Shown in pieces: positions 32,429 to 63,239 of a stretch of DNA of 64,000 nt. The stretch is taken from assembly GCF_001887355.1 (NCBI RefSeq), contig NZ_MPIN01000003.1, positions 763,956-827,955 on the forward strand, read 5' to 3'. The translations under genes and the position numbers were made by a program. The notes beneath the pieces were generated by a model, which saw only the letters and a program-made list of their open reading frames with translations, searched no databases and had not been told where the DNA came from. Every line of letters starts with the position of its first letter. The stretch's first letter is position 1. Source of the DNA: Cystobacter ferrugineus. Its GTDB lineage: Bacteria; Myxococcota; Myxococcia; Myxococcales; Myxococcaceae.

Positions 32429-32521
32429 TTCCCAGGGCTCTTCAGGCCCGGACCTCCGGCCTGTCAATCTCCCGTGGCCATGCATTGCTCCGAGGGGGCC
32501 TTGACGCCTCGACCCCAGGTG

Positions 32522-32537
32522 CTTATAGAGCTATCAG
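32522..32537. promoter_or_regulatory. Putative TetR operator 2 for the CYP102 operon
   Basis: CTTATAGAGCTATCAG is nearly self-complementary. Its centre is 18 bp from that of the next site, which would place two repressor dimers on similar faces of the helix. It lies 45 bp before the CYP102 start. Confidence 0.6.
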
Positions 32538-32539
32538 CA

Positions 32540-32555
32540 CTTATTGACCTATCAG
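32540..32555. promoter_or_regulatory. Putative TetR operator 3 for the CYP102 operon
   Basis: CTTATTGACCTATCAG follows the same palindromic consensus as the other two sites and ends 27 bp before the CYP102 start codon, close enough to cover the promoter or ribosome landing region. Confidence 0.6.
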
Positions 32556-32581
32556 TCCAGGCCCGACTCCGGAGCGCACCC

Positions 32582-35500
32582 ATGGCCACCTCCACGTCCC
32601 TCGTCCCCATTCCGCAGCCCCGCCCCTGGCCCCTGGTGGGCAACCTCACCGACCTGGACGCCGAGCAGTCCACGCTGAGCATGATGGAGCTGGCCCGCCT
32701 CCACGGGCCCCTCTTCCGGTTGGTGTTCTTCGGCCAATCGCTCGTCGTGGTGGGCTCGCAGGAGCTGGTGAACGAGCTCTGTGACGAGAAGCGCTTCGGC
32801 AAGCTCGTCCACTCCTCGCTCCAGGAGCTCCGGGCCATTGGCGGGGACGGCCTGTTCACCGCGCATACCGAGGAGCCCAACTGGGGCAAGGCGCACCGCA
32901 TCCTCATGCCCGCCTTCGGGCCGCGTGGCGTGCGCGACATGTTCGCCCCCATGCTCGATGTGGCCGAGCAGATGCTCCTGCGCTGGGAGCGCTTCGGCGC
33001 CGGGACGGTGCTCGACGTGCCGGACCAGATGACGCGCCTCACGCTCGACACCCTCGCGCTCTGCGCCTTCGACTACCGCTTCAACAGCTTCTACCAGGAC
33101 GCGCTGCACCCGTTCGTGGGCGCCATGGTGAATGGCCTCCACGAGGCGGGGGCCCGCTCGGGCCGCCTGGAGGTGGTCAACCGGCTCCTGCTGCCCAACG
33201 CCCGGCGCTACGCGGAGGACATCCGGTTGATGCACACGGTGGCCGATCAGATCATCGCGGAGCGGCGGCGCGATCCGGACGCGGGCCAGAAGAATGATCT
33301 GCTCGGCCGCATGCTGTCCGCGAGGGATCCCGTCACCGGGGAGACGCTGTCCGACGAGAACATCCGCTACCAGATGGTGACGTTCCTGATCGCCGGGCAC
33401 GAGACGACGAGCGGCCTGCTCTCGTTCGCGCTCTACCTGCTCTTGAAGAATCCCCGGGTGCTCCACGCCGCGCGCGCCCGCGTCGACGAGGTGCTCGGGA
33501 GCGACACGCCGCGCCTGGAGCACCTGCCCGCCCTGCGCTACGTGGAGCAGGTCCTCATGGAGACGCTGCGCCTGTGGCCCACGGCGCCCGGCTTCGCGGT
33601 ACGGGCGCATGAGGACACCGTCATCGGTGGCCGCCATGCCGTGACGACCCAGGACACGCTGCTGATCTTCCCGCCCATCCTGCACCGGGACCCAAAGGTC
33701 TGGGGACCCGACGTGGAGGCATTCCGGCCCGAGCGCTTCGACCGCGAAGCGGAGGCACGGCTGCCGCCCAACGCCTGGAAGCCCTTCGGCAATGGCCAGC
33801 GCGCCTGCATCGGACGGCCCTTCGCCATGCAGGAGGCCCAGCTCGTCCTGTCGATGATCCTGCGGCGCTTCGAGCTCTTCGAGGACGACCCGTCCTACAC
33901 CCTGCGGATCAAGGAGACACTCACCCTCAAGCCCGAGGGCTTCCGCATCCGCGCGCGGCGGCGCGACCCGGCCGCGTCCAAACCCCGGAGTGTCGTGCCG
34001 GGCGCGCCTCGGGACACACCCGCGCCCGCACCGGTCCTGGCACGCCCCGAGGGCCCCCGCACGCCCCTGCTGGTGCTCTACGGGTCGAACACGGGCTCGG
34101 CGCAGGCGTTCGCGCAGCGCATCGGGAGCGATGCGCCCTCCCACGGCTACAGCGTGCGGGTCGCGCCCATGGACGAGCACGCGGGCCGGCTGCCGACCCA
34201 GGGCGCGGTCATCGTCCTCACCGCCTCGTACGAGGGCCAGCCCCCCGACAACGCCCGCCAGTTCGTCGCCGCGCTCGAGGCGGCCCCGGCCGGCGCGTTC
34301 GCGGGCGTGAACTACACGGTCTTCGGCTGCGGCAACCGGCAGTGGGCGCGCACCTACCAGGCCGTGCCCCTCCAGGTGGATGCCCTGCTGGAGCAGGCGG
34401 GCGCCACCCGGCTCAAGCCGCGCGGCGAGGCGGATGCCTCCGAGGACTTCTTCGGCGCCTTCGATGCCTGGTACGCGACGCTCTGGCCCACGCTCGCCGC
34501 CACCTTCGGCCAGGAGGCCGCCGGGACGTCCGAGGCGTCCCGGCTCCAGATCGAGGTGGTGCGCGACCACCGCTCCACCCTGCTGCGGCAGGAGGACCTG
34601 GGCGCGGGACAGCTCGTGGAGAACCGGGAGCTGGTGAACCTGGCCTCCCCGCATGCCCGCTCCAAGCGGCACCTGGAGATCGTCCTGCCCGAGGGGATGA
34701 CGTACCGGGCCGGGGACTACCTGGCCGTGCTCCCCAGGAATCCGGGGGTGAGCGTCGAGCGCGCCCTGCGCCGGTTCGGCTTCACCCCGGACAGCCAGAT
34801 CATCGTGCACAAGGAGGGCGCCCGGCTCACGGCGCTGCCCACCGACTACCCCATCGCCGTGAGCGAGCTGCTCACCAGCTATGTGGAGCTCGGACAGCCC
34901 GCCACCCGGGCCCAGGTCGAGACGCTCGCGAAGGCCACGCGCTGCCCGCCGGAAAAGCAGCCCCTGGAGGCGCTCGCCCAGGAGGCGCTGTACCGGCGCG
35001 AGGTGCTCGACAAGCGCGTGAGCGTGCTGGACCTGCTGGAGCGCTTCCCCGCGTGCGAGCTGTCCTTCGCCGCGTTCCTGGAGATGCTGCCGCCGCTCAA
35101 GGCCCGGCAGTATTCGATCGCGTCCTCGCCCTTGTGGGACAAGCGCCGCTGCGCGCTCACGGTCGCCGTCGTCGATGCGCCCGCGTACTCGGGCCAGGGC
35201 CGCTACCTCGGCGTGACGTCCAACTACCTCGCGGCTTCGGCGCCCGCCTCCCGCGTGTCCGTGGCGGTGCGGCCCAGCCACCCCCGCTTCCATCCACCGG
35301 AGGATCCCCAGGTGCCCCTGGTGATGATCTGCGCCGGGAGCGGGCTCGCCCCCTTCCGGGGCTTCCTGCAGGAGCGCGCCCTCCAGGCCCAGGAGGGCCG
35401 GCGCGTCGGACCGGCGCTGCTCTTCTTCGGCTGCGACCACCCGGACGCGGACTTCCTCTACCGCGAGGAGCTGGAGGCCTGGCAACGCGCGGGAATCGTG

Positions 35501-35773
35501 GACGTGCGGCCCGCCTTCACCTACGCGCCGGAGGGCGAGGTGACCTTCGTCCAGCACCGTGTCTGGAAGGATCGCGCGGACGTGGCCGCGCTCTTCCAGC
35601 GGGGCGCCACGGTGTACGTCTGCGGCGATGGCCGGCGCATGGCGCCCGCGGTGCGGGAAACACTGGTGCGCATCTACGAGGAGGCCGCCCGGGTGCCGCG
35701 CGAGGAGGCCGAGCAGTGGGCCCTGCGCGTGGAGCGCGAGCAAGGCCGCTTCGTGGCGGATGTCTTCGCATGA
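32582..35773 (+). CDS. CYP102-type self-sufficient cytochrome P450/NADPH-P450 reductase (P450-BM3-like)
   Basis: 1063 residues from the ATG at 32582, with ggag eight bases upstream. The P450 domain (about 1-460) is very close to BM3: GDGLFTAHTEEPNWGKAHRI (including the BM3 Phe87 position), the I helix FLIAGHETTSGLLSFALY (Thr275), the ExxR motif ETLRLWPTAP, and the heme Cys409 in PFGNGQRACIG. A flavodoxin-like FMN domain starts near 500 (VLYGSNTGSAQ). The FAD/NADPH reductase part has ARQYSIASSP and ICAGSGLAPFRGFLQ. It should hydroxylate fatty acids near the chain end using NADPH. The TetR gene behind is the likely repressor. Confidence 0.95.
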   Translation: MATSTSLVPIPQPRPWPLVGNLTDLDAEQSTLSMMELARLHGPLFRLVFFGQSLVVVGSQELVNELCDEKRFGKLVHSSLQELRAIGGDGLFTAHTEEPNWGKAHRILMPAFGPRGVRDMFAPMLDVAEQMLLRWERFGAGTVLDVPDQMTRLTLDTLALCAFDYRFNSFYQDALHPFVGAMVNGLHEAGARSGRLEVVNRLLLPNARRYAEDIRLMHTVADQIIAERRRDPDAGQKNDLLGRMLSARDPVTGETLSDENIRYQMVTFLIAGHETTSGLLSFALYLLLKNPRVLHAARARVDEVLGSDTPRLEHLPALRYVEQVLMETLRLWPTAPGFAVRAHEDTVIGGRHAVTTQDTLLIFPPILHRDPKVWGPDVEAFRPERFDREAEARLPPNAWKPFGNGQRACIGRPFAMQEAQLVLSMILRRFELFEDDPSYTLRIKETLTLKPEGFRIRARRRDPAASKPRSVVPGAPRDTPAPAPVLARPEGPRTPLLVLYGSNTGSAQAFAQRIGSDAPSHGYSVRVAPMDEHAGRLPTQGAVIVLTASYEGQPPDNARQFVAALEAAPAGAFAGVNYTVFGCGNRQWARTYQAVPLQVDALLEQAGATRLKPRGEADASEDFFGAFDAWYATLWPTLAATFGQEAAGTSEASRLQIEVVRDHRSTLLRQEDLGAGQLVENRELVNLASPHARSKRHLEIVLPEGMTYRAGDYLAVLPRNPGVSVERALRRFGFTPDSQIIVHKEGARLTALPTDYPIAVSELLTSYVELGQPATRAQVETLAKATRCPPEKQPLEALAQEALYRREVLDKRVSVLDLLERFPACELSFAAFLEMLPPLKARQYSIASSPLWDKRRCALTVAVVDAPAYSGQGRYLGVTSNYLAASAPASRVSVAVRPSHPRFHPPEDPQVPLVMICAGSGLAPFRGFLQERALQAQEGRRVGPALLFFGCDHPDADFLYREELEAWQRAGIVDVRPAFTYAPEGEVTFVQHRVWKDRADVAALFQRGATVYVCGDGRRMAPAVRETLVRIYEEAARVPREEAEQWALRVEREQGRFVADVFA

Positions 35774-35880
35774 GGGCCGCATGCCCCCTCCTTCCCACCA
35801 GGCGCCCCGGCGAGCGCCTGGCGGGTGTCCCCACGCACTTGGGGGAGGACGAAAGCGCCCGGAGCGAGCAGGATGGCGGC

Positions 35881-36543
35881 GTGAGCAAGGAACCCACGCA
35901 GAGCGCGGGGCGCGCCGACATCCTCGCGGCGGCGCTGCACGAATTCGCCGACCATGGCTTCACGGGCGCCACCACGGCGGGCATCGCCCGGAGGGCGGGC
36001 GTCACCCAACCCCTGGTCCACCACCACTTCGGCTCCAAGCAGGGGTTGTGGAGCGCGGTCCTGACCCAGTTCTACCAGGACCTCACCGCCGCCCTCGAGC
36101 ACACCATCCAGCAGGTGGAGGCGGAGGGCGTGGACCGGCGGACACGGCTGGCGCGGCTGCTGCACGCCCTGATGGCCTTCTTCGGCCGACGCCCCGAGCT
36201 CAGCCGCCTGCTGCGCGTGGAGAGCAGCGTGAGCGGCGCGATGTCCGAGGAGATCCACACCCGGTGGATCTCCAAGCAGGTGGAGCTGTTCCGGCGCGAG
36301 CTGGCCGCCGCCGTGGAGGACGGCACGCTGCCGCCGGTGGATCCGCGGATGGCCTACCCGCTCATCATCGGGGCCTGCATCCAACCCTTCTCCGAGCCGG
36401 AGACGGTGCGGCTCGCCTTCGGCCTGGACATGCACCATCCGGCCAACGTGGAGCAATACGCGAACTTCGCCGTGGACGTGCTGCTGCGAGGCCTCGGCGC
36501 GCCCCCCGAGCCGCCCCGCCCCCCGCGGACACGGCGCCGCTGA
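35881..36543 (+). CDS. TetR family regulator, probable repressor of the CYP102 gene
   Basis: 220 residues from the GTG at 35881; an ATG at 35770 overlapping the CYP102 stop (ATGA) is in frame but adds 37 disordered residues. The helix-turn-helix is ADILAAALHEFADHGFTGAT followed by TAGIARRAGVTQPLVHHHFG. The ligand domain is helical and ends in a Pro/Arg tail. In Bacillus, CYP102 genes are repressed by TetR proteins (Bm3R1, FatR) and released by fatty acids. The three palindromes before the CYP102 gene make the same scheme likely here. Confidence 0.88.
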   Translation: MSKEPTQSAGRADILAAALHEFADHGFTGATTAGIARRAGVTQPLVHHHFGSKQGLWSAVLTQFYQDLTAALEHTIQQVEAEGVDRRTRLARLLHALMAFFGRRPELSRLLRVESSVSGAMSEEIHTRWISKQVELFRRELAAAVEDGTLPPVDPRMAYPLIIGACIQPFSEPETVRLAFGLDMHHPANVEQYANFAVDVLLRGLGAPPEPPRPPRTRRR

Positions 36544-51261: not shown

Positions 51262-51546
51262 GAGGCTCCGCTTAGTACTACAGTTGGGCTTTCTAAGGGG
51301 ATAGAGGAAGGCCCTTCACCCCTGCCGCCGCAACCACCTTCCTTCCTCCGTTCTCCGTGGGCCCATCCGCTCGTCCCTCCCCCCTGAGATAATGCAGCCG
51401 AGGCGCAGCGCAACTGCGGAGGTGGGGTGGAGGGCCCCACTTGTCTGGTGGGGAGCCAGGAGAGAAAGCGAAACGAAAGAGACGGTGACGCGGGAGGTGG
51501 CGTGGTTACAACCCATGGGAGAAGTCACCTTCACCTGGGGGCCGCC

Positions 51547-51909
51547 ATGTCGAGCAGCGCCATCGTCTCGGACACTAACGAAACGGTTCTCGTCAAGAAA
51601 TGGGAGCAGGAGTGGCTCCGCGTGCAGGAGTGGGTGCAACCCCACTTCGCTCGTCCGGAGACACGCGCCTCGGCGGAGTCCCTCCTGCAAGGGCTGCTGG
51701 CCCGAGTCGAGCGCAAGAACTCCTGGGGCTTGAGTGAAGAGGTGGGCCGGGCCACGCCCTACGCTTTTCAACATCTGCTCAATGGGGCTCAGTGGGACGA
51801 GGACGCACTCCGGGATGACGTGTTGTCGTATGCGAGAGAGCGACTGGGCGAGGGGGGAATATTGGCCGTAGATGAGACCGGCTTCTTGAAGAAGGGGGAG
51901 AAGTCGTAA
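51547..51909 (+). pseudogene. IS701-family transposase, N-terminal fragment
   Basis: 120 codons from the ATG at 51547. LLQGLLARVERKNSWGLSEE, GRATPYAFQHLLNGAQWDED and AVDETGFLKKGEKS (first catalytic Asp) are typical of IS701 transposases. The frame stops directly after that motif; the remaining two thirds of the protein are absent. Confidence 0.8.
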
Positions 51910-51964
51910 CTGCTCGCCGTCCCCCGTCGTGACGAGAGAGGCAGAGGCGTGAGACGTCCAGGCC

Positions 51965-52384
51965 ATGAACCTGGAGGTACACGTGGAGAAGGAGTTGGAG
52001 CAGTTCCGGCAGGAGGCGCAGAGGCTGAGGGCAGGACGAGCGAAGGGCTCGGGCCCCTTCCCCGAGCCGCTGAGGGCGTTCGCGGTGCGCTACCTGGCGC
52101 AGGCGCAGGAGAAGGGGGAGACGCTCAAGTCGGTGGTGGAGAGGCTGGGAGTGTCGGAGCCGACATTGCAGGCGTGGAGGCGTGGGCAGACGCCCGGCAG
52201 CAAGAAGACGCGCAGCAGTGAGCCGAGGACGCAGCCGCTGCTGCCCGTGGTGGTGCGCCCGTCGAAGGCGCACGCGGCCTCGCCCGTGGCGACTACCTTC
52301 GCGGTCGTGTCGCCCGAGGGCTGGAGAGTGGAGGGACTGGGCCTGGAGGAAGCGGCGCAGTTGATGCGGAGGCTGGCGTGCTGA
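51965..52384 (+). CDS. IS66-family accessory protein TnpA
   Basis: 139 residues. Helix-turn-helix region LKSVVERLGVSEPTLQAWRR in the middle and FAVVSPEGWRVEGLGLEEA near the end, as in the first ORF of IS66 elements. Its stop overlaps the tnpB start (TGATG). No transposase TnpC is found nearby, so the element is incomplete. Confidence 0.75.
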   Translation: MNLEVHVEKELEQFRQEAQRLRAGRAKGSGPFPEPLRAFAVRYLAQAQEKGETLKSVVERLGVSEPTLQAWRRGQTPGSKKTRSSEPRTQPLLPVVVRPSKAHAASPVATTFAVVSPEGWRVEGLGLEEAAQLMRRLAC

Positions 52385-52985: not shown

Positions 52986-53455
52986 CGGAATCGAAAGTCT
53001 CGGGAGTAGGGAGGATGAAGCCCGGGTGTCGCGGGGGAGGCATCCTGAGTACGTCCGTATAGAAGCATCGCCGGGCTCGCTCGCGCAAGCTCGCCCGCCC
53101 TCCCGGCGCGAGGGGACGCTATGGCTCAATCCGGGGCTGCGCCTTGAGCACACCCAGGGCAAGGGTATCACCGTGGATGGCTCGGGCAATGCGTACGTGG
53201 TGGGGATGACCGCATGCAGGTCATCATCGACAAGCTGCGCGAGCTGGAGCACCGTAGGGGCGCTCAAGGCGCGGTATCGGACAACACATCGCACTGGCCG
53301 AGGGGCCGATGGCGGGCCTGGCCGCGGACACGCGGTGAAGTCACCATGACCGGCTGTTGCTGTCAGGACGTCAGACGGCTATCCGTCGACATGAGGTTCG
53401 GCCATGCGTGAACCGGCATGGCGGGTTCCCAGGCCGCCCCAGGAGGGTCAGCAAC
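52986..53455. other. Stretch of small gene remnants
   Basis: At about 53140-53215 the plus strand reads GKGITVDGSGNAYVVGMT, one SBBP beta-propeller repeat of a secreted protein. At 53214-53260 it reads MQVIIDKLRELEHRR, from an unrelated helical protein. Neither continues. The region looks like stacked insertion debris before the HNH gene. Confidence 0.45.
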
Positions 53456-54859
53456 ATGGCCGATCTCGGCTGTATCTACTGTGGTCGACCCACAGGCTCG
53501 CGAGAGCACACGTTTCCAGCGGGGCTCGGAGGGCGCCGCTTCAACAAAGGCATCCTGTGCGCGCGCTGCAACGGAAACTTCAGCGCGATGGATCAGGATC
53601 TCGTGGAGCAGCTGAATCTGCTCAATGGGCTGATCGGCGTCCGTTCCGACCACCGAGACGTCCCCCGACCCGCCGTGATGGTGGAGGCCCGCACGAACGT
53701 CAAGTACGCCATCCAAGCCAACGGAATGATCACCCTGGCCGAGCCGGTGGTCCGTGAGGTGAGCCGGGAGGGAACGCGCACACGGACGGTCGTGGACTTC
53801 GCGAGCCGCGCGGAGGCCCAGGCGTACCTGGCGCGAATGAAGCAGGAAGGCAAGACGCCCCGGCAGGTCCAGTGGGAGGAGCGGGTGACGTACTTCACCC
53901 AACCGACAGCGTCGCGGCTCCACTTCGGGGGAGCGAGCACGATGCGGGAGGTGGCGCGGATTGCGCTCAACTTCCTTGCCCACTACTTCCCGGTGGCTGC
54001 TCGCCAGCCAGGGCTCGATCCGCTCAAGGCATACATCACGGGTGGCGGGCCGAACACCTTCGTGAACTTCTCCCTGGGAGATGCGCTAACCCAACCGCCG
54101 ATGGAATACCCGTTCGGACACCGGGTGCTGGTCGCCGTCGAGCGCGAGTCCCAGCAGGCCTGGGCCTGGGTGAGCATCTTCTCGTGCTTCAACCTGTATG
54201 TCCGGTTGGGAGCCGTCTCGGTGGAACGAACCGAGACGGTGGTAACGGACATCAACCCACTCGCGGAGCACCCTCCTCACGACGTGAAGGAGCAGCGTTT
54301 CGCGGAGGCACTCCATCGCATGATGAAGGCCCCCACGAACGAGGAGGTCGGCACCGCCGCAGTTCAGGCCACCACGACCTTCTTCCAGAGGGTCCAGGAC
54401 CGCCGTTGGGAGGAGGATGCCCAGGTGCTCGTCCCCGCGTTGAATCAGCTCCGGGGCCTGCCAGCGGCGCAACGGCTCGCGCACATCGACGTGCTCCTCC
54501 AGGAGCAGCGGCAGCGTGCCCTGAATCCCATGGGGGAAGGTGTGCGGCAGATCACGGAGCACTGGAAGTCGAGCCCGGAGTCCGTGGGCTCTCCGGTCAT
54601 CCAGGCACTCATCCAGGCACTCAAGGCCTCGATCCAGCCCGGGCCGGCTGGCCACAACGGGTTGGCGCCCCAGACGGAGGCATTGCTCAAACTCGTCTGC
54701 AGACGGTTTTCCATGGAGCTTGCCCAACAGCTTGAGCGGGCTCCCGTCACCTCGCTGGAGCTCCGTCTCCTGCTGGAGGGGGGCCTTGGCATCGTCCTCG
54801 CGCTGGAGGTAATTCGTGACGCCTTCCAGTCCGCGATTCAGGCGGAAACGATGGATTGA
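53456..54859 (+). CDS. HNH-type nuclease domain protein
   Basis: 467 residues from the ATG at 53456, with aggaggg nine bases upstream. The N-terminus CIYCGRPTGSREHTFPAGLG and ILCARCNGNFSAMD carry two CxxC pairs and a Glu-His, the zinc-bound treble-clef pattern of HNH endonucleases. About 200 residues of mixed fold follow (FGGASTMREVARIALNFLAH, YPFGHRVLVAVE), then a long helical C-terminus rich in Gln and Leu. Such stand-alone HNH proteins in variable islands are often defence nucleases or homing-type enzymes. No partner gene is seen beside it; the target is unknown. Confidence 0.75.
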   Translation: MADLGCIYCGRPTGSREHTFPAGLGGRRFNKGILCARCNGNFSAMDQDLVEQLNLLNGLIGVRSDHRDVPRPAVMVEARTNVKYAIQANGMITLAEPVVREVSREGTRTRTVVDFASRAEAQAYLARMKQEGKTPRQVQWEERVTYFTQPTASRLHFGGASTMREVARIALNFLAHYFPVAARQPGLDPLKAYITGGGPNTFVNFSLGDALTQPPMEYPFGHRVLVAVERESQQAWAWVSIFSCFNLYVRLGAVSVERTETVVTDINPLAEHPPHDVKEQRFAEALHRMMKAPTNEEVGTAAVQATTTFFQRVQDRRWEEDAQVLVPALNQLRGLPAAQRLAHIDVLLQEQRQRALNPMGEGVRQITEHWKSSPESVGSPVIQALIQALKASIQPGPAGHNGLAPQTEALLKLVCRRFSMELAQQLERAPVTSLELRLLLEGGLGIVLALEVIRDAFQSAIQAETMD

Positions 54860-57237: not shown

Positions 57238-57361
57238 GTGCGTCCCCTTATACCCGTGACCGTGTCCGAGCACGCCCCCTCTCCGCCCGGCCCCCCTCCC
57301 ACCCGACCACCAACCCCCCGTTCTCCCCTACCCTACAGGGCTATTGCGAATTACTGCTTTC

Positions 57362-57374
57362 TGAATCATATTCA
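57362..57374. promoter_or_regulatory. Palindrome before the TetR gene (probable autoregulatory operator)
   Basis: tgaatcatattca is a perfect 5-bp palindrome with a 3-bp centre, ending five bases before the TetR start codon in an AT-rich patch. A TetR protein bound here would block its own expression. Confidence 0.5.
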
Positions 57375-57379
57375 CCGTC

Positions 57380-58027
57380 ATGAGTCCCCGCTCAACACCG
57401 CGAAGCAAGCCTCAGCCCCTCCGGGAGCGGATGAAGGAGGAGGCCAGGGTGGCCATCCTCGAGGCGGCGGAACAGGTGATCGCCGAGCAGGGCCCCTCCG
57501 CCACGCGGATGGAGGACATCGCCACGCGGGTGGGTGTCTCGGTCGGCACGCTCTACAACTACTTCGAGGACAGGCAGCGATTGCTCCAGGCGCTGCTCGA
57601 CGCACAGGCTCAACAGTTGATGGCGGTGCTGGACGCGGAGTTGGAGCGCAGCCAGGGCGCGCCCTACCGCACGCGCTTGCATGGCCTGCTGCGCTCCATC
57701 CTGGAGCATGCCCAGAAGCACTTCCGCTTCCTCTCCCTGCTCTGGGAGGAGAGGGTGCTGCGCGTGGCCGCCTCGAGCGAGGAGTTGGATCGCCATCAGC
57801 GACTCTTGAGCGCGCTGACCGAGCGGATCGGCTCACTCAACCCCGAGGGCCTCGCGCAAGGGGTGCTGCGGCCCGAGGACGCATCCCACTACCCCACGCT
57901 GCTGCTGGGCATGCTGCAGAGCAGCCTGCACAGGCAATTGCTCGATCGGCAGCCCACGCCCGTCGACGAGCAGATCGCCCTGCTGCTGCGCTGCTTCCTG
58001 GAAGGCGCCAGCCCGCGCCCCGGGTGA
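57380..58027 (+). CDS. TetR/AcrR family regulator, probable regulator of the P450 array
   Basis: 215 residues. Helix-turn-helix VAILEAAEQVIAEQGPSATR followed by MEDIATRVGVSVGTLYNYFE; the rest is the helical ligand domain. It lies 76 bp upstream of the first of four P450 genes in the same direction, so control of them is likely. The ligand may be a P450 substrate. It is a different subfamily from the TetR next to CYP102. Confidence 0.88.
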   Translation: MSPRSTPRSKPQPLRERMKEEARVAILEAAEQVIAEQGPSATRMEDIATRVGVSVGTLYNYFEDRQRLLQALLDAQAQQLMAVLDAELERSQGAPYRTRLHGLLRSILEHAQKHFRFLSLLWEERVLRVAASSEELDRHQRLLSALTERIGSLNPEGLAQGVLRPEDASHYPTLLLGMLQSSLHRQLLDRQPTPVDEQIALLLRCFLEGASPRPG

Positions 58028-58103: not shown

Positions 58104-59321
58104 ATGGATCTGTTGACCCGCTTCGACTTCCTCAACCCCGAGGTGATGCGCAACCCCTACCCGTACTTCGCGGAGATGCGCGAGAAGGCGCCCCTTCACT
58201 ACGACGCGAAGCTCCAGGCCCACGTCCTCACCCGCTACGAGGACGTGTCGTACGTCACGAAGAACCCCGCCCTGTTCTCCTCGGTGGATGTCCGCATCGC
58301 CGGCAAGCACCAGAAGGAGCGCAGCCAGGATACCGGACTGGAGGGCGTGGACAGCCTGCTCACCACGGATCCGCCCGTGCACTCGCGCCTGCGCGGCAAG
58401 GTCAACCGCTCCTTCACTCCCAAGCAGATCTCCGCGATGGAGCCACGCGTGCGCGAGCTGTCGCGCGAGCTCGTCGCGGAGATGACGGCCAGCAACGAGT
58501 TCGAGTTCATGAGCGGGCTGGCCTCGCCCCTGCCCGTCACCATCATCGCGGAGATGCTCGGCGTGGACACCTCGCGCCGCCGCGACTTCAAGCGCTGGAG
58601 CGACGCGATCGCCAACTCCGGCAACGCCAGCCTCACCGGCAAGACGCCCGAGGACGTGGTGCGCAACGCCAAGGAGATGCTCGCGTACATGACGGAGGTG
58701 GCCGAGGCGCGCCGCCGCGAGCCCCGGGGTGACCTCATCTCCCTGCTCGTCCAGGAGGTCGAGGGCCAGGAGGCCCTGACTCCCCCGGAGGTCAACTCCT
58801 TCGCCATCCTGCTGCTGCTGGCCGGCAACGAGACCACCACCAACCTGCTGGGCAACGCCCTCACCGCGCTCATCCGCAATCCGGAGGCGTACGAGTGGCT
58901 GCGGAACGACCCCACGCAGGCCGCCTGCGCCGCCGTGTGCGAGGAGACGCTGCGCTATGACTCGCCCGTGATCACCGTCGTGCGCCGCACCACCCAGGAG
59001 GTGGAGCTGAGCGGCGGCAAGGTGCCCGCGAACACCACGCTGTTCGCCTCGGTGTCGGCCGCCAACCACGATCCGCGCAAGTTCCCCAACCCGGAGCGCT
59101 TCGATCCGCGGCGGGACACCACCGGCCTGATGTCCTTCGGCCACGGCATCCACTTCTGCCTCGGCGCTCCGCTCGCCCGCCTGGAGGCCCCCGTGGCCCT
59201 GCAGGAGTTGATGGCGCGTGCCCCCCGTCTGGGCTTCTCGCCGCGCCAGCCCGAGCACATCGACTACGGCGCCTCGTTCGCCCTGCGCGGCCCCCGCGTG
59301 CTCTGGCTCCAGAAGAACTGA
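58104..59321 (+). CDS. Cytochrome P450, tandem copy 1
   Basis: 405 residues, soluble class I bacterial P450. I helix LLLAGNETTTNLLGNALT with Thr244; ExxR in EETLRYDSPV (Glu281, Arg284); heme loop SFGHGIHFCLGAPLARLEAP with Cys352. The N-terminus MDLLTRFDFLNPEVMRNPYP then YFAEMREKAP lacks a membrane anchor. SD gaggagag precedes the ATG. It needs an external ferredoxin and reductase, neither of which is nearby. It opens the row of four paralogues and lies directly behind the TetR gene. Confidence 0.93.
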   Translation: MDLLTRFDFLNPEVMRNPYPYFAEMREKAPLHYDAKLQAHVLTRYEDVSYVTKNPALFSSVDVRIAGKHQKERSQDTGLEGVDSLLTTDPPVHSRLRGKVNRSFTPKQISAMEPRVRELSRELVAEMTASNEFEFMSGLASPLPVTIIAEMLGVDTSRRRDFKRWSDAIANSGNASLTGKTPEDVVRNAKEMLAYMTEVAEARRREPRGDLISLLVQEVEGQEALTPPEVNSFAILLLLAGNETTTNLLGNALTALIRNPEAYEWLRNDPTQAACAAVCEETLRYDSPVITVVRRTTQEVELSGGKVPANTTLFASVSAANHDPRKFPNPERFDPRRDTTGLMSFGHGIHFCLGAPLARLEAPVALQELMARAPRLGFSPRQPEHIDYGASFALRGPRVLWLQKN

Positions 59322-59333
59322 GCGCGTCCCCCC

Positions 59334-59399
59334 AAGCCAGGGAGCGCGGGGACGAAGACGGGTGGGCGTGCTCCTCCGCGCCCGCTCGCTCCCTGGCTT
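59334..59399. repeat. Hairpin between P450 copies 1 and 2
   Basis: aagccagggagcg (59334-59346) and cgctccctggctt (59387-59399) are perfect 13-bp arms around a 40-bp loop. No T-run follows. It may limit read-through or stabilise mRNA. The spacers between copies 2 and 3 keep the downstream half (ccatgaacttccgc...) but not this hairpin. Confidence 0.5.
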
Positions 59400-59463
59400 G
59401 CCCGCTGTCTCCATGAACTTCCGCCGTCCCCCCCGTCGTTTTCCTCTCCGAGGAGAGCCACTC

Positions 59464-60684
59464 ATGGACCTGCTGAGCCGCTTCGACTTCTTCAACCCCG
59501 AGGTGATGCGCAACCCCTATCCGTACTTCGCGGAGATGCGCGAGAAGGCGCCCATCTACTACGACGCGAAGCTGCAGGCCCACGTGCTCAGCCGCTACGA
59601 GGACGTGTCGTTCGTGCTCAAGAATCACGCCCTGTTCTCCTCCACGAAGATCCGCGTCGCCGGCAAGCTCCAGGAGGAGCGCGCCTCCGTGCAGGAGTTG
59701 GGCTCGGTGTCCAACCTGGTCACCACGGATCCGCCCATGCATACGCGCATGCGGGGCCTCGTCAGCCGGGCCTTCACTCCCAAGCAGATCTCCGCGATGG
59801 AGCCGCGCGTGCGCGAGCTGTCCCGGGCGCTCATCGCGGAGATGGCGTCCCGGTCCGAGTTCGACTTCATGGAGGGCCTGGCCTCGCCCCTGCCCGTCAC
59901 CATCATCTCGGAGATGCTGGGCGTGGACACCTCCCGCCGCGGCGATTTCAAGCGCTGGAGCGACACCCTCATCCAATCCAGCAGCGCCACCCTCCAGTCG
60001 GGCAAGGCGTCCGAGCAGGTCGAGCGCAGCGCCCGGGAGATGCTCACGTACATGCAGGAGGTGGCCGAGGCTCGCCGTCGCGAGCCCCGGGGCGATCTCA
60101 TCTCGCTGCTCGTCCAGGAGACCGATGGCGTGGCGGCCCTGACGCCCCCGGAGGTCAACTCCTTCACCGTCCTGTTGCTCATCGCGGGCAACGAGACCAC
60201 CACCAACCTGCTGGGCAATACCCTCAACGCCCTCATCCGCCACCCGGAGGCGTACGAGTGGTTGCGGCGTGAGCCCTCCGCCGCCTCCTGCTCGGCCGTG
60301 TGCGAGGAGACGCTGCGCTACGACTCGCCCGTCATCGGGCTCTTCCGCCGCACCACGCAGGAGGTGGAGGTGAGCGGGGGCAAGCTGCCCGCGGACAGCT
60401 CGGTGCTGGTGTTGCTGGCCTCCGCCAACCATGATCCGCGCAAGTTCCCCGATCCGGAGCGGTTCGACCCGCGGAGGGACACCAATGGCCTGATGTCCTT
60501 CGGCCATGGCATCCACTTCTGCCTCGGCGCACCGCTCACCCGCCTGGAGGCCCCCGTGGCCCTGCAGGAGTTGATGGAGCGCGCACCCCGCCTGGGCTTC
60601 GCCCCGCGTCAGCCCGAGGCCATCGACTACGGTGGCTCGTTCTTCCTGCGTGGACCCCGCTCGCTCTGGCTCCAGAAGAACTGA
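59464..60684 (+). CDS. Cytochrome P450, tandem copy 2
   Basis: 406 residues from the ATG at 59464 behind gaggagagcc. Same motifs as copy 1: LLIAGNETTTNLLGNTL, EETLRYDSPV, SFGHGIHFCLGAPLTRLEAP. It differs mainly in the BC-loop region after VAGKLQEERASVQELGSVSN and in the F/G region (LIQSSSATLQSGKASEQVER), the parts that shape the substrate pocket. This suggests that the duplicated genes have moved to different substrates. Confidence 0.93.
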   Translation: MDLLSRFDFFNPEVMRNPYPYFAEMREKAPIYYDAKLQAHVLSRYEDVSFVLKNHALFSSTKIRVAGKLQEERASVQELGSVSNLVTTDPPMHTRMRGLVSRAFTPKQISAMEPRVRELSRALIAEMASRSEFDFMEGLASPLPVTIISEMLGVDTSRRGDFKRWSDTLIQSSSATLQSGKASEQVERSAREMLTYMQEVAEARRREPRGDLISLLVQETDGVAALTPPEVNSFTVLLLIAGNETTTNLLGNTLNALIRHPEAYEWLRREPSAASCSAVCEETLRYDSPVIGLFRRTTQEVEVSGGKLPADSSVLVLLASANHDPRKFPDPERFDPRRDTNGLMSFGHGIHFCLGAPLTRLEAPVALQELMERAPRLGFAPRQPEAIDYGGSFFLRGPRSLWLQKN

Positions 60685-60762
60685 GCGCGACCCGGCTTGC
60701 CCCGCTGTCCCCATGAACTTCCGCTGTCCCCTCCGCCTTTTCCTCACCGAGGAGTGCCGCAC

Positions 60763-61980
60763 ATGGATCTGCTGAGCCGCTTCGACTTCTTCAACCCCGA
60801 GGTGATGCGCAATCCCTACCCCTACTTCGCGCAGATGCGCGAGAAGGCGCCCCTCTTCTACGACGCCAAGCTCCAGGCCCCCCTCGTCAGCCGCTACGAG
60901 GACGTGTCGTACATCTTGAAGAACCCCGCCCTGTTCTCCTCCGCGCAGATCCGCATCGCCGGCAAGCTCCCGACGGAGCGCAGCCAGGAGGCCGGGCTCG
61001 GGGCGGTGGACAACCTGCTCACCATGGACCCGCCCGTGCACACGCGCCTGCGCGGCCGGGTCAACCGCGCCTTCACCCCCAAGCAGATCAACGCCCTGGA
61101 GCCGCGCGTGCGCGAGCTGTCCCGGGAGTGCATCACGGAGATGACGGCCAGCAACGAGTTCGAGTTCATGAGTGGGCTGGCCTCGCCCCTGCCCGTCACC
61201 ATCATCGCGGAGATGCTCGGCGTGGATACCTCGCGCCGCCGCGACTTCAAGCGCTGGAGCGACGCGGTCGTCAACTCCAGCAACGCCTCCTTCACCGGCA
61301 AGACGCCCGAGGAGGCGGTGCGCAGCGCCAAGGAGATGCTCGCCTATATGACGGAGGTGGCCGAGGCGCGCCGCCGCGAGCCCCGGGACGATCTCATCTC
61401 CCTGCTCGTCCAGGACAGCGAGGGTCAGGAGGCCCTGACGCCCGAGGAGGTCAACTCCTTCGCCGTCCTGCTGCTGCTGGCGGGCAACGAGACCACCACC
61501 AACCTGCTGGGCAATGCCCTCACCACGCTCATCCGCCACCCGGAGGCGTACGAGTGGCTACGGCGCGATCCCACCCCCGCGACCTGTGCCGCCGTGATCG
61601 AGGAGACGCTGCGCTACGACTCGCCCGTGTTGACACTCAGCCGCCGCACCACCCAGGAGGTGGAGCTGAGCGGCGGCAAGGTGCCCGCGGAGACCACCCT
61701 CATGGTGCTGGTGTCGTCCGCCAACCATGACCCGCGCAAGTTCTCCGACCCGGAGCGCTTCGATCCGCGGCGCGACACCACCGGCCTGCTGTCCTTCGGG
61801 CACGGCATCCACTTCTGCATCGGTGCCCCGCTCGCCCGCCTGGAGGCCCCCGTGGCCCTGCAGGAGCTCGTGGCACGCACGCCCCGTCTGGGCTTTTCGC
61901 CCCGCCAGCCCGAGAATATCGACTACGGGTCCTCGTTCTTCCTGCGCGGACCCCGCTCGCTCTGGCTCCAGAAGAACTGA
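60763..61980 (+). CDS. Cytochrome P450, tandem copy 3
   Basis: 405 residues from the ATG at 60763 behind gaggag. Closest to copy 1 by eye (shared NLLTMDPPVHTRLRGRVNRA-type segment and VNSSNASFTGKTPEEAVRSA region). Motifs LLLAGNETTTNLLGNALT, EETLRYDSPVLTLSRRTTQE and SFGHGIHFCIGAPLARLEAP are intact. The spacer to copy 2 repeats part of the spacer between copies 1 and 2, so the duplicated unit included its leader. Confidence 0.93.
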   Translation: MDLLSRFDFFNPEVMRNPYPYFAQMREKAPLFYDAKLQAPLVSRYEDVSYILKNPALFSSAQIRIAGKLPTERSQEAGLGAVDNLLTMDPPVHTRLRGRVNRAFTPKQINALEPRVRELSRECITEMTASNEFEFMSGLASPLPVTIIAEMLGVDTSRRRDFKRWSDAVVNSSNASFTGKTPEEAVRSAKEMLAYMTEVAEARRREPRDDLISLLVQDSEGQEALTPEEVNSFAVLLLLAGNETTTNLLGNALTTLIRHPEAYEWLRRDPTPATCAAVIEETLRYDSPVLTLSRRTTQEVELSGGKVPAETTLMVLVSSANHDPRKFSDPERFDPRRDTTGLLSFGHGIHFCIGAPLARLEAPVALQELVARTPRLGFSPRQPENIDYGSSFFLRGPRSLWLQKN

Positions 61981-62030
61981 GCCAGCGCGGGCCGTCGTGC
62001 CCTTCGCTGTCTCTCTTCCCGGAGCGTCCC

Positions 62031-63239
62031 ATGAGTCTGCTCGATGGCTTCGACTTCCTCGATCCGAAGTTCAGGCAACACCCCTACCCCTACTTCGCCG
62101 AGATGCGCGAGCAGGCTCCGCTGTTCTGGAGCGAGCGCCTCCAGTCCTGGCTCCTCAGCCGCCATGAGGACGTGGCGTTCGCCCTGAAGAACGCCGCCCT
62201 GTTCTCCTCCGCCAACGTCCAGATCGCGGGCCGCAAGCGGGGCTTCTTCCAGGTCGAGTCGGTGGCCGAGCTGCTCACCTCGGACCCTCCCGTCCATACG
62301 CGGATGCGCGGCCTGGTCAGCCGGGCCTTCACCCCCAAGCAGATCTCCGCGATGGAGCCGCGCGTGCGCGAGCTGTCCCGGGCGCTCATCGCGGAGATGA
62401 CGGCCAGCCCCGAGTTCGACTTCATGGACGGGCTGGCCTCGCCCCTGCCCGTCACCATCATCGCGGAGATGCTCGGCATCGACACCATCCGCCGCCGCGA
62501 CTTCAAGCGCTGGAGCGACACGATCATCGCCGGCCTGAGCGCGAGCCTGCGCACGGGCCAGGAGCCGGAGGAGGTCGGCCGCTGCCGCGAGGAGATGCTC
62601 GCGTACATGACCCAGGTGGCCGAGGCGCGCCGCCACGAGCCCCGGGGTGACCTCATCTCCCTGCTCGTCCAGGAGACGGACGGCGTGCCCGCGCTGACCC
62701 CCCAGGAGGTGAATGCCTTCACCGTGCTGCTGCTCATCGCCGGCAACGAGACCACCACCAACCTGCTGGGCAATGCCCTCACCACGCTCATCCGCCACCC
62801 CGAGGAGTACGAGTGGCTGCGGCGCGATCCCTCCCTCGCCGCCTGCTCGGCCGTGTGCGAGGAGACCCTGCGCTTCGAGTCGCCGGTGATGGGGGTGTCG
62901 CGCCGCACCACCCAGGAGGTGGAGGTGAGCGGCGGGAAGATCCCCGCGAACGTGACGGTGACGCTCCTGCTCGGCTCGGCCAACCATGACCCGCGCAGGT
63001 TCCCCGACCCGGAGCGCTTCGATCCGCGGCGCGACACCACCGGCCTGATGTCCTTCGGCCACGGCATCCACTTCTGCCTCGGCGCACCGCTCACCCGAGT
63101 GGAAGCCCCCGTGGCCCTGCGGGAGCTGATGGCGCAGGCCCCCCGCCTGGGCTTCGCGCCGCGCCAGCCCGAGCAGCTCGACTACGGGCCCTCCTTCGCC
63201 TTGCGGGGGCCCCGCTCGCTCTGGCTCCGCAAGAACTGA
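62031..63239 (+). CDS. Cytochrome P450, tandem copy 4
   Basis: 402 residues; the most divergent of the four at the N-terminus (MSLLDGFDFLDPKFRQHPYP) and in the BC loop (KRGFFQVESVAELLTSDPPV). Catalytic motifs are complete: LLIAGNETTTNLLGNALT, EETLRFESPV, SFGHGIHFCLGAPLTRVEAP. It lies 50 bp behind copy 3 and is probably cotranscribed. No terminator-like hairpin is seen before it; a short cccgccaggcggg stem follows it. Confidence 0.93.
   Translation: MSLLDGFDFLDPKFRQHPYPYFAEMREQAPLFWSERLQSWLLSRHEDVAFALKNAALFSSANVQIAGRKRGFFQVESVAELLTSDPPVHTRMRGLVSRAFTPKQISAMEPRVRELSRALIAEMTASPEFDFMDGLASPLPVTIIAEMLGIDTIRRRDFKRWSDTIIAGLSASLRTGQEPEEVGRCREEMLAYMTQVAEARRHEPRGDLISLLVQETDGVPALTPQEVNAFTVLLLIAGNETTTNLLGNALTTLIRHPEEYEWLRRDPSLAACSAVCEETLRFESPVMGVSRRTTQEVEVSGGKIPANVTVTLLLGSANHDPRRFPDPERFDPRRDTTGLMSFGHGIHFCLGAPLTRVEAPVALRELMAQAPRLGFAPRQPEQLDYGPSFALRGPRSLWLRKN

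Follow-up and report, generated by a model that had tools for sequence, protein, structure and literature searches.

An old, conserved, TetR-led array of four CYP109-type P450 genes in Cystobacter with a putative role in hydroxylating lipophilic compounds

Near the end of a 64,000-nucleotide stretch of the Cystobacter ferrugineus genome (contig NZ_MPIN01000003.1, positions 763,956 to 827,955; hereafter the window), four cytochrome P450 genes stand one behind the other downstream of a gene for a TetR-family regulator. This locus raises the question of when the four copies arose, what sets them apart, and what the organism may gain from keeping them behind a single candidate switch. All of the open reading frames are complete and co-oriented on the + strand, and the catalytic motifs AGNET, EETLR, and FGHGIHFC(L/I)G are retained in each of the four enzymes, as a first-pass annotation had described. 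For copies 2 and 3, the frames as listed start further upstream, and the starts used here were picked by alignment and ribosome site. The gaps within the array range from 50 to 142 bp (76 bp between the TetR gene and copy 1, then 142, 78, and 50 bp). In the window's own genome (G000, 12.05 Mb), where 65 profile rows were merged into 60 P450 genes, the array is the sole run of more than two P450 genes spaced by at most 3 kb. Trees with the genes of related genomes show that it goes back to a TetR-linked P450 gene that was duplicated before the three species that carry four copies separated.

Age and spread of the TetR-linked P450 genes

Relatives were sought with copy 3 in the family (96 genomes; E ≤ 1e-140, 11 positive), the order (145 genomes), and the phylum (195 genomes; E ≤ 1e-120 and 11 positive in each of the latter two), which at these set cut-offs gave 23 genes at 14 loci in total. 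A scan of public contigs returned 6 distant matches (24–34%), which were not used. The count of copies in relatives, a check that had been proposed from the window alone, shows four intact copies in identical order, flanked by tgt and an ABC-F-type gene, in G000 and in two of the three congeners searched (G001 and G002). The remaining congener, G003, has one copy at the array site (G003_a) and one elsewhere (G003_b).

The protein tree has the topology ((1,3),2),4, and each copy clusters with its orthologs across the three species. With codon-model branch lengths added by hand, the closest paralog pair (copies 1 and 3 of G000) has a synonymous divergence (dS) of about 0.77, versus 0.22–0.36 for the three ortholog pairs that were summed. 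Across 18 comparisons, the sites that support orthology number 58–183 and those that indicate concerted change 1–10. Because the trees group by orthology and the paralog dS exceeds the ortholog dS, the array is older than the three-species split, and the "recent expansion" suggested earlier does not hold. In the tree, G003_a is placed beside copy 2 (support 91/88). As formation of the array after the divergence of G003 is only weakly disfavored (approximately unbiased (AU) test, p = 0.038), it is likely, no more than that, that G003 has lost copies.

The copies had been said to possess near-identical C-terminal halves, which overstates their likeness. The identity is 76.7–85.6% in this half and 65.0–81.8% in the N-terminal half, and at third codon positions the C-terminal half is no more alike (73.8–81.2%, compared to 71.5–89.7% in the N-terminal half). 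Gene conversion as the origin of alike C-terminal halves is ruled out for the time since speciation by the orthology and concerted-change site counts given above. The spacers, as annotated, are duplicated in part, with a segment of 68 nt present in two places (Table 1). The spacer between copies 1 and 2 is retained in G001 and G002 as well as in G000; considered as a dispersed repeat, it had no match elsewhere than at the array locus in the four genomes searched. It contains a strong inverted repeat without a T run.

The association of the P450 with its regulator extends beyond the array. At 12 of the 14 related loci, a TetR gene lies directly upstream of the P450 gene and is co-oriented with it, the exceptions being G003_b and G009. 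Two genomes of another genus, G007 and G010, hold two relatives each, and one from each genome (G007_a and G010_a) falls beside copy 1. Cystobacter copy 1 is weakly separated from two sister-genus forms (75/91), and a tree in which the six Cystobacter copies 1 and 3 are forced together to the exclusion of G007_a and G010_a is disfavored (AU test, p = 0.026). The TetR proteins of the G007 and G010 modules are 90 and 89% identical to that of the window. Directly ahead of the TetR start, 37 of 40 nt match in both modules; of the next 40 nt upstream, 24 (G007) and 21 (G010) match, and the 80 nt beyond these agree at 33 and 27 of 104 aligned columns. Neither tgt nor an ABC-F gene was found near G007_a or G010_a, and the frames around them, compared by eye, resemble neither those of Cystobacter nor each other. 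The simplest reading of these comparisons is that the TetR gene and copy 1 apparently moved between genera by transfer.

Two further arrangements were seen among the relatives. G003_b (61% to copy 3; L056:11005-12254) has no TetR gene and is followed by a gene for a zf-HC2/ChrR-cupin protein and a sigma-70-family gene. At five sister-genus loci, a second, distant P450 gene follows the TetR-linked one (33–35% at three loci and 30–31% at two); in L060 and L064, this second P450 gene is in turn followed by a KASIII-like gene.

Enzyme family and divergence of the substrate pocket

Each copy belongs to the P450 superfamily by its PF00067 domain (E-values from 2e-34 to 3e-32) and motifs, and its 402–406 amino acids comprise a P450 domain alone with no fused reductase, as in class I P450s. 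The four copies are 41.1, 42.3, 43.8, and 44.3% identical to CYP109Q5 over 384–388 aligned positions. A CYP family unites P450s that share more than 40% identity with a member (PMC9148083), a value that all copies exceed with CYP109Q5 as the sole reference. An AlphaFold model of copy 3 (mean predicted local distance difference test score 85.9, lower in the BC loop) displays the P450 fold. Its best Foldseek match is CYP109Q5 (PDB 6gmf, TM-score 0.83, 403 aligned columns), which is also the best sequence match of this copy; members of other families, EryK, PikC, and TbtJ1, are matched as well at 35–38%. As such, the sequences point to four class-I CYP109-type monooxygenases, and the model of copy 3 suggests a P450 fold for the array enzymes.

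CYP109Q5 of Chondromyces apiculatus oxidizes terpenes, steroids, and drugs with the foreign redox partners CamA/CamB, and the residues targeted by mutagenesis include Val80, Ile232, and Ile283 (PMC6389848). The array differs from it in having four copies with a TetR gene of their own and in several of the corresponding residues. At the Val80 site (alignment position 86), copies 1 and 3 carry L and copy 4 L or I, with V only in copy 2. The Ile232 site (position 239) is L in copies 1 and 3 and I in copies 2 and 4, and the Ile283 site (position 292) is V in copy 1, L in copies 2 and 3, and V or I in copy 4. Every copy has V at the Ala280 site (position 289), and position 293 is V in copy 1, S in copies 3 and 4, and variable in copy 2.

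In the alignment, the BC loop and the F/G region are the most variable stretches among the four copies, in agreement with the first-pass annotation, which had also called for a codon-wise comparison of substitution rates. For this comparison, we used a codon model of our own; the YN00 procedure of Biopython gave no value for most paralog pairs. The limits of the substrate-recognition sites (SRSs) were taken from the secondary structure of the model and motif positions and were fixed before the tests. The 12 array genes of the three species evolve under purifying selection overall (M0 omega 0.122). The equal strength over the whole length that, according to the first-pass annotation, would speak against its interpretation is not observed: omega is 0.209 in the SRSs and 0.096 elsewhere (twice the log-likelihood difference (2ΔlnL) 20.9). 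On the stem branches, which lie between copies, omega is higher than on the other branches (0.170 vs 0.105, p = 0.004), and the values for SRSs and elsewhere are 0.397 and 0.118 on the stems compared to 0.164 and 0.087 on the others. This branch-by-region interaction has a 2ΔlnL of 8.12 (p = 0.0044). A grid with fixed branch lengths gave 0.270 and 0.081 on the stems and 0.181 and 0.099 on the others with a statistic of 9.4. Among the null masks, the observed value was reached by 2 of the 405 circular shifts, by none of the 366 that were displaced by at least 20 columns, and by 5 of 2000 random masks. Tested singly, SRS1 (6.8) and SRS5 (3.5) showed the largest interaction, the other four giving 0.0–2.3. 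Among the region fits of omega, two small ones (SRS6 in copies 1 and 3), in which omega ran away at a zero synonymous rate, were disregarded. The results lend moderate support to a modest divergence of the pocket under purifying selection and, with the same strength, to a divergence after duplication that favored the BC loop and the region following helix K.

Candidate regulation, electron supply, and surroundings

A promoter-like element and a candidate operator lie ahead of the TetR gene (Table 1). The operator-like 14-mer CTGAATCATATTCA has exactly one site per genome in G000, G001, and G002, and with 1–2 mismatches it has 6, 6, and 10 sites, compared to 2, 3, and 2 for a reversed-pattern control (22 vs 7). 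Of the 17 near-match sites examined among these 22, 7 are inside predicted frames and 10 between frames, with a frame start within 250 bp in 3 of the 10. No P450 or ferredoxin gene was seen by eye at these 17 sites, so that they do not bear out a trans regulon revealing the redox partners, although a wider regulon may exist. Sister-genus promoters carry a TTCA-N5-6-TGAA inverted repeat across the start codon instead of TGAATCATATTCA. In 11 of the 12 TetR promoters that were scored (G005 was left out), palindromes near the start codon have arms of 5–8 bp (9 promoters) or 4 bp (2 promoters); they are individually weak, with 0 to 248 of 500 shuffles being equal or better. A scan for terminator-like sites on the + strand found none between the genes of the array, its single + hit being inside copy 2. 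The TetR gene and the four P450 genes probably form one operon.

A TetR gene in a P450 operon with a palindromic operator at the promoter is known from fatR-cyp102A3 of Bacillus subtilis and Bm3R1-CYP102 of B. megaterium, and FatR has a single genomic target by chromatin immunoprecipitation (PMC3814354). The array resembles fatR-cyp102A3 in that its TetR gene is upstream and co-oriented and in that its predicted operator occurs in exact form once in each of the three genomes. CYP102, however, is a single P450-reductase fusion, whereas the array consists of four class-I P450s; because these are without a reductase, the array is not a member of the fatR-cyp102A3 system. A CYP102-type self-sufficient P450 with P450, flavodoxin, FAD, and NAD domains is encoded elsewhere in the window (32474-35773, +) and is followed by a TetR-family gene (about 35833-36543, +; TetR_N E 2e-15).

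As annotated earlier, no ferredoxin or reductase gene adjoins the array. The genome-wide ferredoxin search covered the PF00111 and PF13370 families. Rows of these families occur within 3 kb of 3 of the 60 P450 genes of G000 (Table 1); the genome has 16 such rows in all, many within larger frames, and the sole row on the contig of the array is more than 600 kb away from it. With 3 of 60 P450 genes so linked, the lack of an adjoining ferredoxin gene of these two families is ordinary in this genome.

The upstream neighbor of the array is tgt (PF01702), on the opposite strand. Downstream, 185 bp after copy 4, comes the gene for the ABC-F-type ATPase (two ABC_tran stretches and ABC_tran_Xtn), then a BrkB-family gene, and beyond it nucleotide-sugar genes that were assigned by eye. 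Of the adjoining core genes that mark a biosynthetic cluster, none was recognized beside the array in the stretches read, which is in line with the earlier annotation, and tgt and the ABC-F gene flank the site in four species. Transposase pieces (DDE_5, and HTH_Tnp_1 barely past the cut-off) are located at 51427-52384 of the window, about 5–6 kb upstream of the TetR gene, and a gene for an HNH_5 endonuclease-domain protein (53357-54859, +) lies between them and tgt.

Table 1 Positions of the array genes and associated elements (window numbering unless a locus or contig is given)
Feature	Position	Strand	Remarks
Promoter-like TTGCGA-17 nt-CATATT ahead of TetR	57344..57372	+	by eye; 8/12 consensus matches
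Candidate TetR operator TGAATCATATTCA	57362..57374	.	palindrome; overlaps the weak -10
TetR-family regulator, probable first operon gene	57380..58027	+	PF00440 (TetR_N), E 2.7e-15
P450 copy 1	58104..59321	+	405 aa; complete frame; PF00067; orthologs in G001, G002
Inverted repeat in 1-2 spacer	59333..59400	+	22-nt arms, 86% complementary
Spacer segment, duplicated 5' of copy 3	59392..59459	+	87% to 60691-60758
P450 copy 2	59464..60684	+	406 aa; complete frame; PF00067; start by alignment and ribosome site
Second spacer-segment copy, before copy 3	60691..60758	+	87% to 59392-59459
P450 copy 3, sister to copy 1	60763..61980	+	405 aa; PF00067; AlphaFold model
P450 copy 4, most divergent, shorter BC loop	62031..63239	+	402 aa; PF00067
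Second P450s, sister-genus loci	L057:10793-12043, L058:10755-11966, L061:8118-9365, L060:8045-9361, L064:7682-8998
Three P450s with a nearby PF00111/PF13370 row	G000:C18:61794-63562, C3:154042-155552, C4:19137-20539

Explanations for four retained copies

On balance, we consider it probable that the array is a TetR-autoregulated, substrate-inducible operon of partly diverged CYP109-type hydroxylases that act on lipophilic substrates with electrons supplied in trans. TetR would sit on the predicted palindromic operator at its own promoter, and a hydrophobic ligand would free it, whereupon TetR and the four P450s would be made together. The four class-I enzymes, with shared catalytic motifs and a shared C-terminal core, would be fed by ferredoxins encoded elsewhere. 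After the duplication, which the trees place before the three-species split, divergence would have been biased toward the pocket, above all the BC loop and the post-helix-K segment. The operon would thus most likely broaden the range of, or the positions attacked on, lipophilic compounds such as terpenoids, steroids, or fatty acids; these classes, as substrates and inducers, are suggested by analogy with CYP109 relatives.

A number of results weigh against this explanation. The consensus promoter scan found none ahead of the TetR gene, the 8/12 element being below its threshold, and the TGAATCATATTCA palindrome is weak alone, with 61 of 500 shuffles scoring as well. G003 has a single copy at the array site, so that this relative manages there without the remaining three. 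The branch-by-region interaction drops to a 2ΔlnL of 4.2 without columns 63–81 and to 3.3 with copies 1–3 only, and the per-site posterior for beta > alpha peaks at 0.62 for the array genes and at 0.75 when all 22 genes are taken together. The other adverse results favor the view that the copies are redundant and kept for dosage, with relaxed constraint on the SRSs and no real change of substrate. In seven single-copy orthologs, omega is also raised in the SRSs (0.228 vs 0.116, 2ΔlnL 10.2), and because of this similar excess the SRS excess is a family trait. The higher omega of the stem branches could reflect relaxation just as well as adaptation. SRS positions are not enriched among the columns that are fixed between copies (12 in SRSs, 29 outside) relative to those that vary within copies (47 and 95; Fisher p = 0.71), and no usable region fit had an omega above 1, so that positive selection was not detected. 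Nevertheless, all four copies are intact in three species, the 12 array proteins share 218 invariant columns, the SRS contrast is bigger on the paralog branches, and several pocket residues are copy-specific and mostly retained across species. We therefore regard retention for dosage as rather unlikely. The substrate diversification proposed at first is supported in part, by the larger SRS contrast between copies; the fixed differences and the region fits do not bear it out, and the interaction that carries it weakens in subsets.

The first-pass annotation had also offered stepwise oxidation, in which the four enzymes would work in series on one molecule. There is little evidence either way: the genes are probably one operon, and the second P450 at five sister-genus loci may mean paired oxidations there, but G003 has one copy at the site, the G007 and G010 modules, apparently acquired by transfer, contain a single copy each, and no further pathway gene was recognized beside the array. 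We consider this reading improbable. Myxobacteria are rich in natural products, and the enzymes could instead tailor the product of a biosynthetic cluster encoded at another place in the genome, an explanation to which we assign an equally small probability. While 21% of deltaproteobacterial P450s belong to biosynthetic clusters (PMC9148083), the tgt and ABC-F neighbors are constant in four species and the module, along with its regulator, is also found at other sites. Finally, that the copies are alike because this strain recently duplicated or converted them is very improbable even though copies 1 and 3 are 84% identical, with 90% third-position identity in the N-terminal half, since the excess of orthology-supporting over concerted-change sites largely refutes this for the time since the species split.

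A wider and more tentative idea, which we would sooner doubt than adopt, is that it constitutes a bacterial counterpart of animal xenobiotic P450 arrays. One ligand switch would control four co-expressed enzymes whose pockets selection drove apart after duplication, mainly in the BC loop and the stretch behind helix K, with the redox face left constant, and the TetR gene with copy 1 would be mobile between genera as a detoxification module.

A survey lists 42 P450s for Cystobacter fuscus and 56 for Archangium gephyra (PMC9148083), and the array enzymes were probably already counted among the former; G000, with 60 P450 genes by our own merging, is similarly P450-rich. Literature searches revealed no published account of this array among the matches listed. 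To our knowledge, a substrate or inducer has been established for few of the P450s of myxobacteria. What the locus appears to offer is an old, conserved, TetR-led CYP109-type array whose presumed function is the hydroxylation of lipophilic compounds. Its four naturally diverged pockets on one scaffold, together with one candidate switch, would make it suitable for studying how pocket residues determine the product in CYP109 enzymes, and its TetR may be usable for finding the natural inducer.

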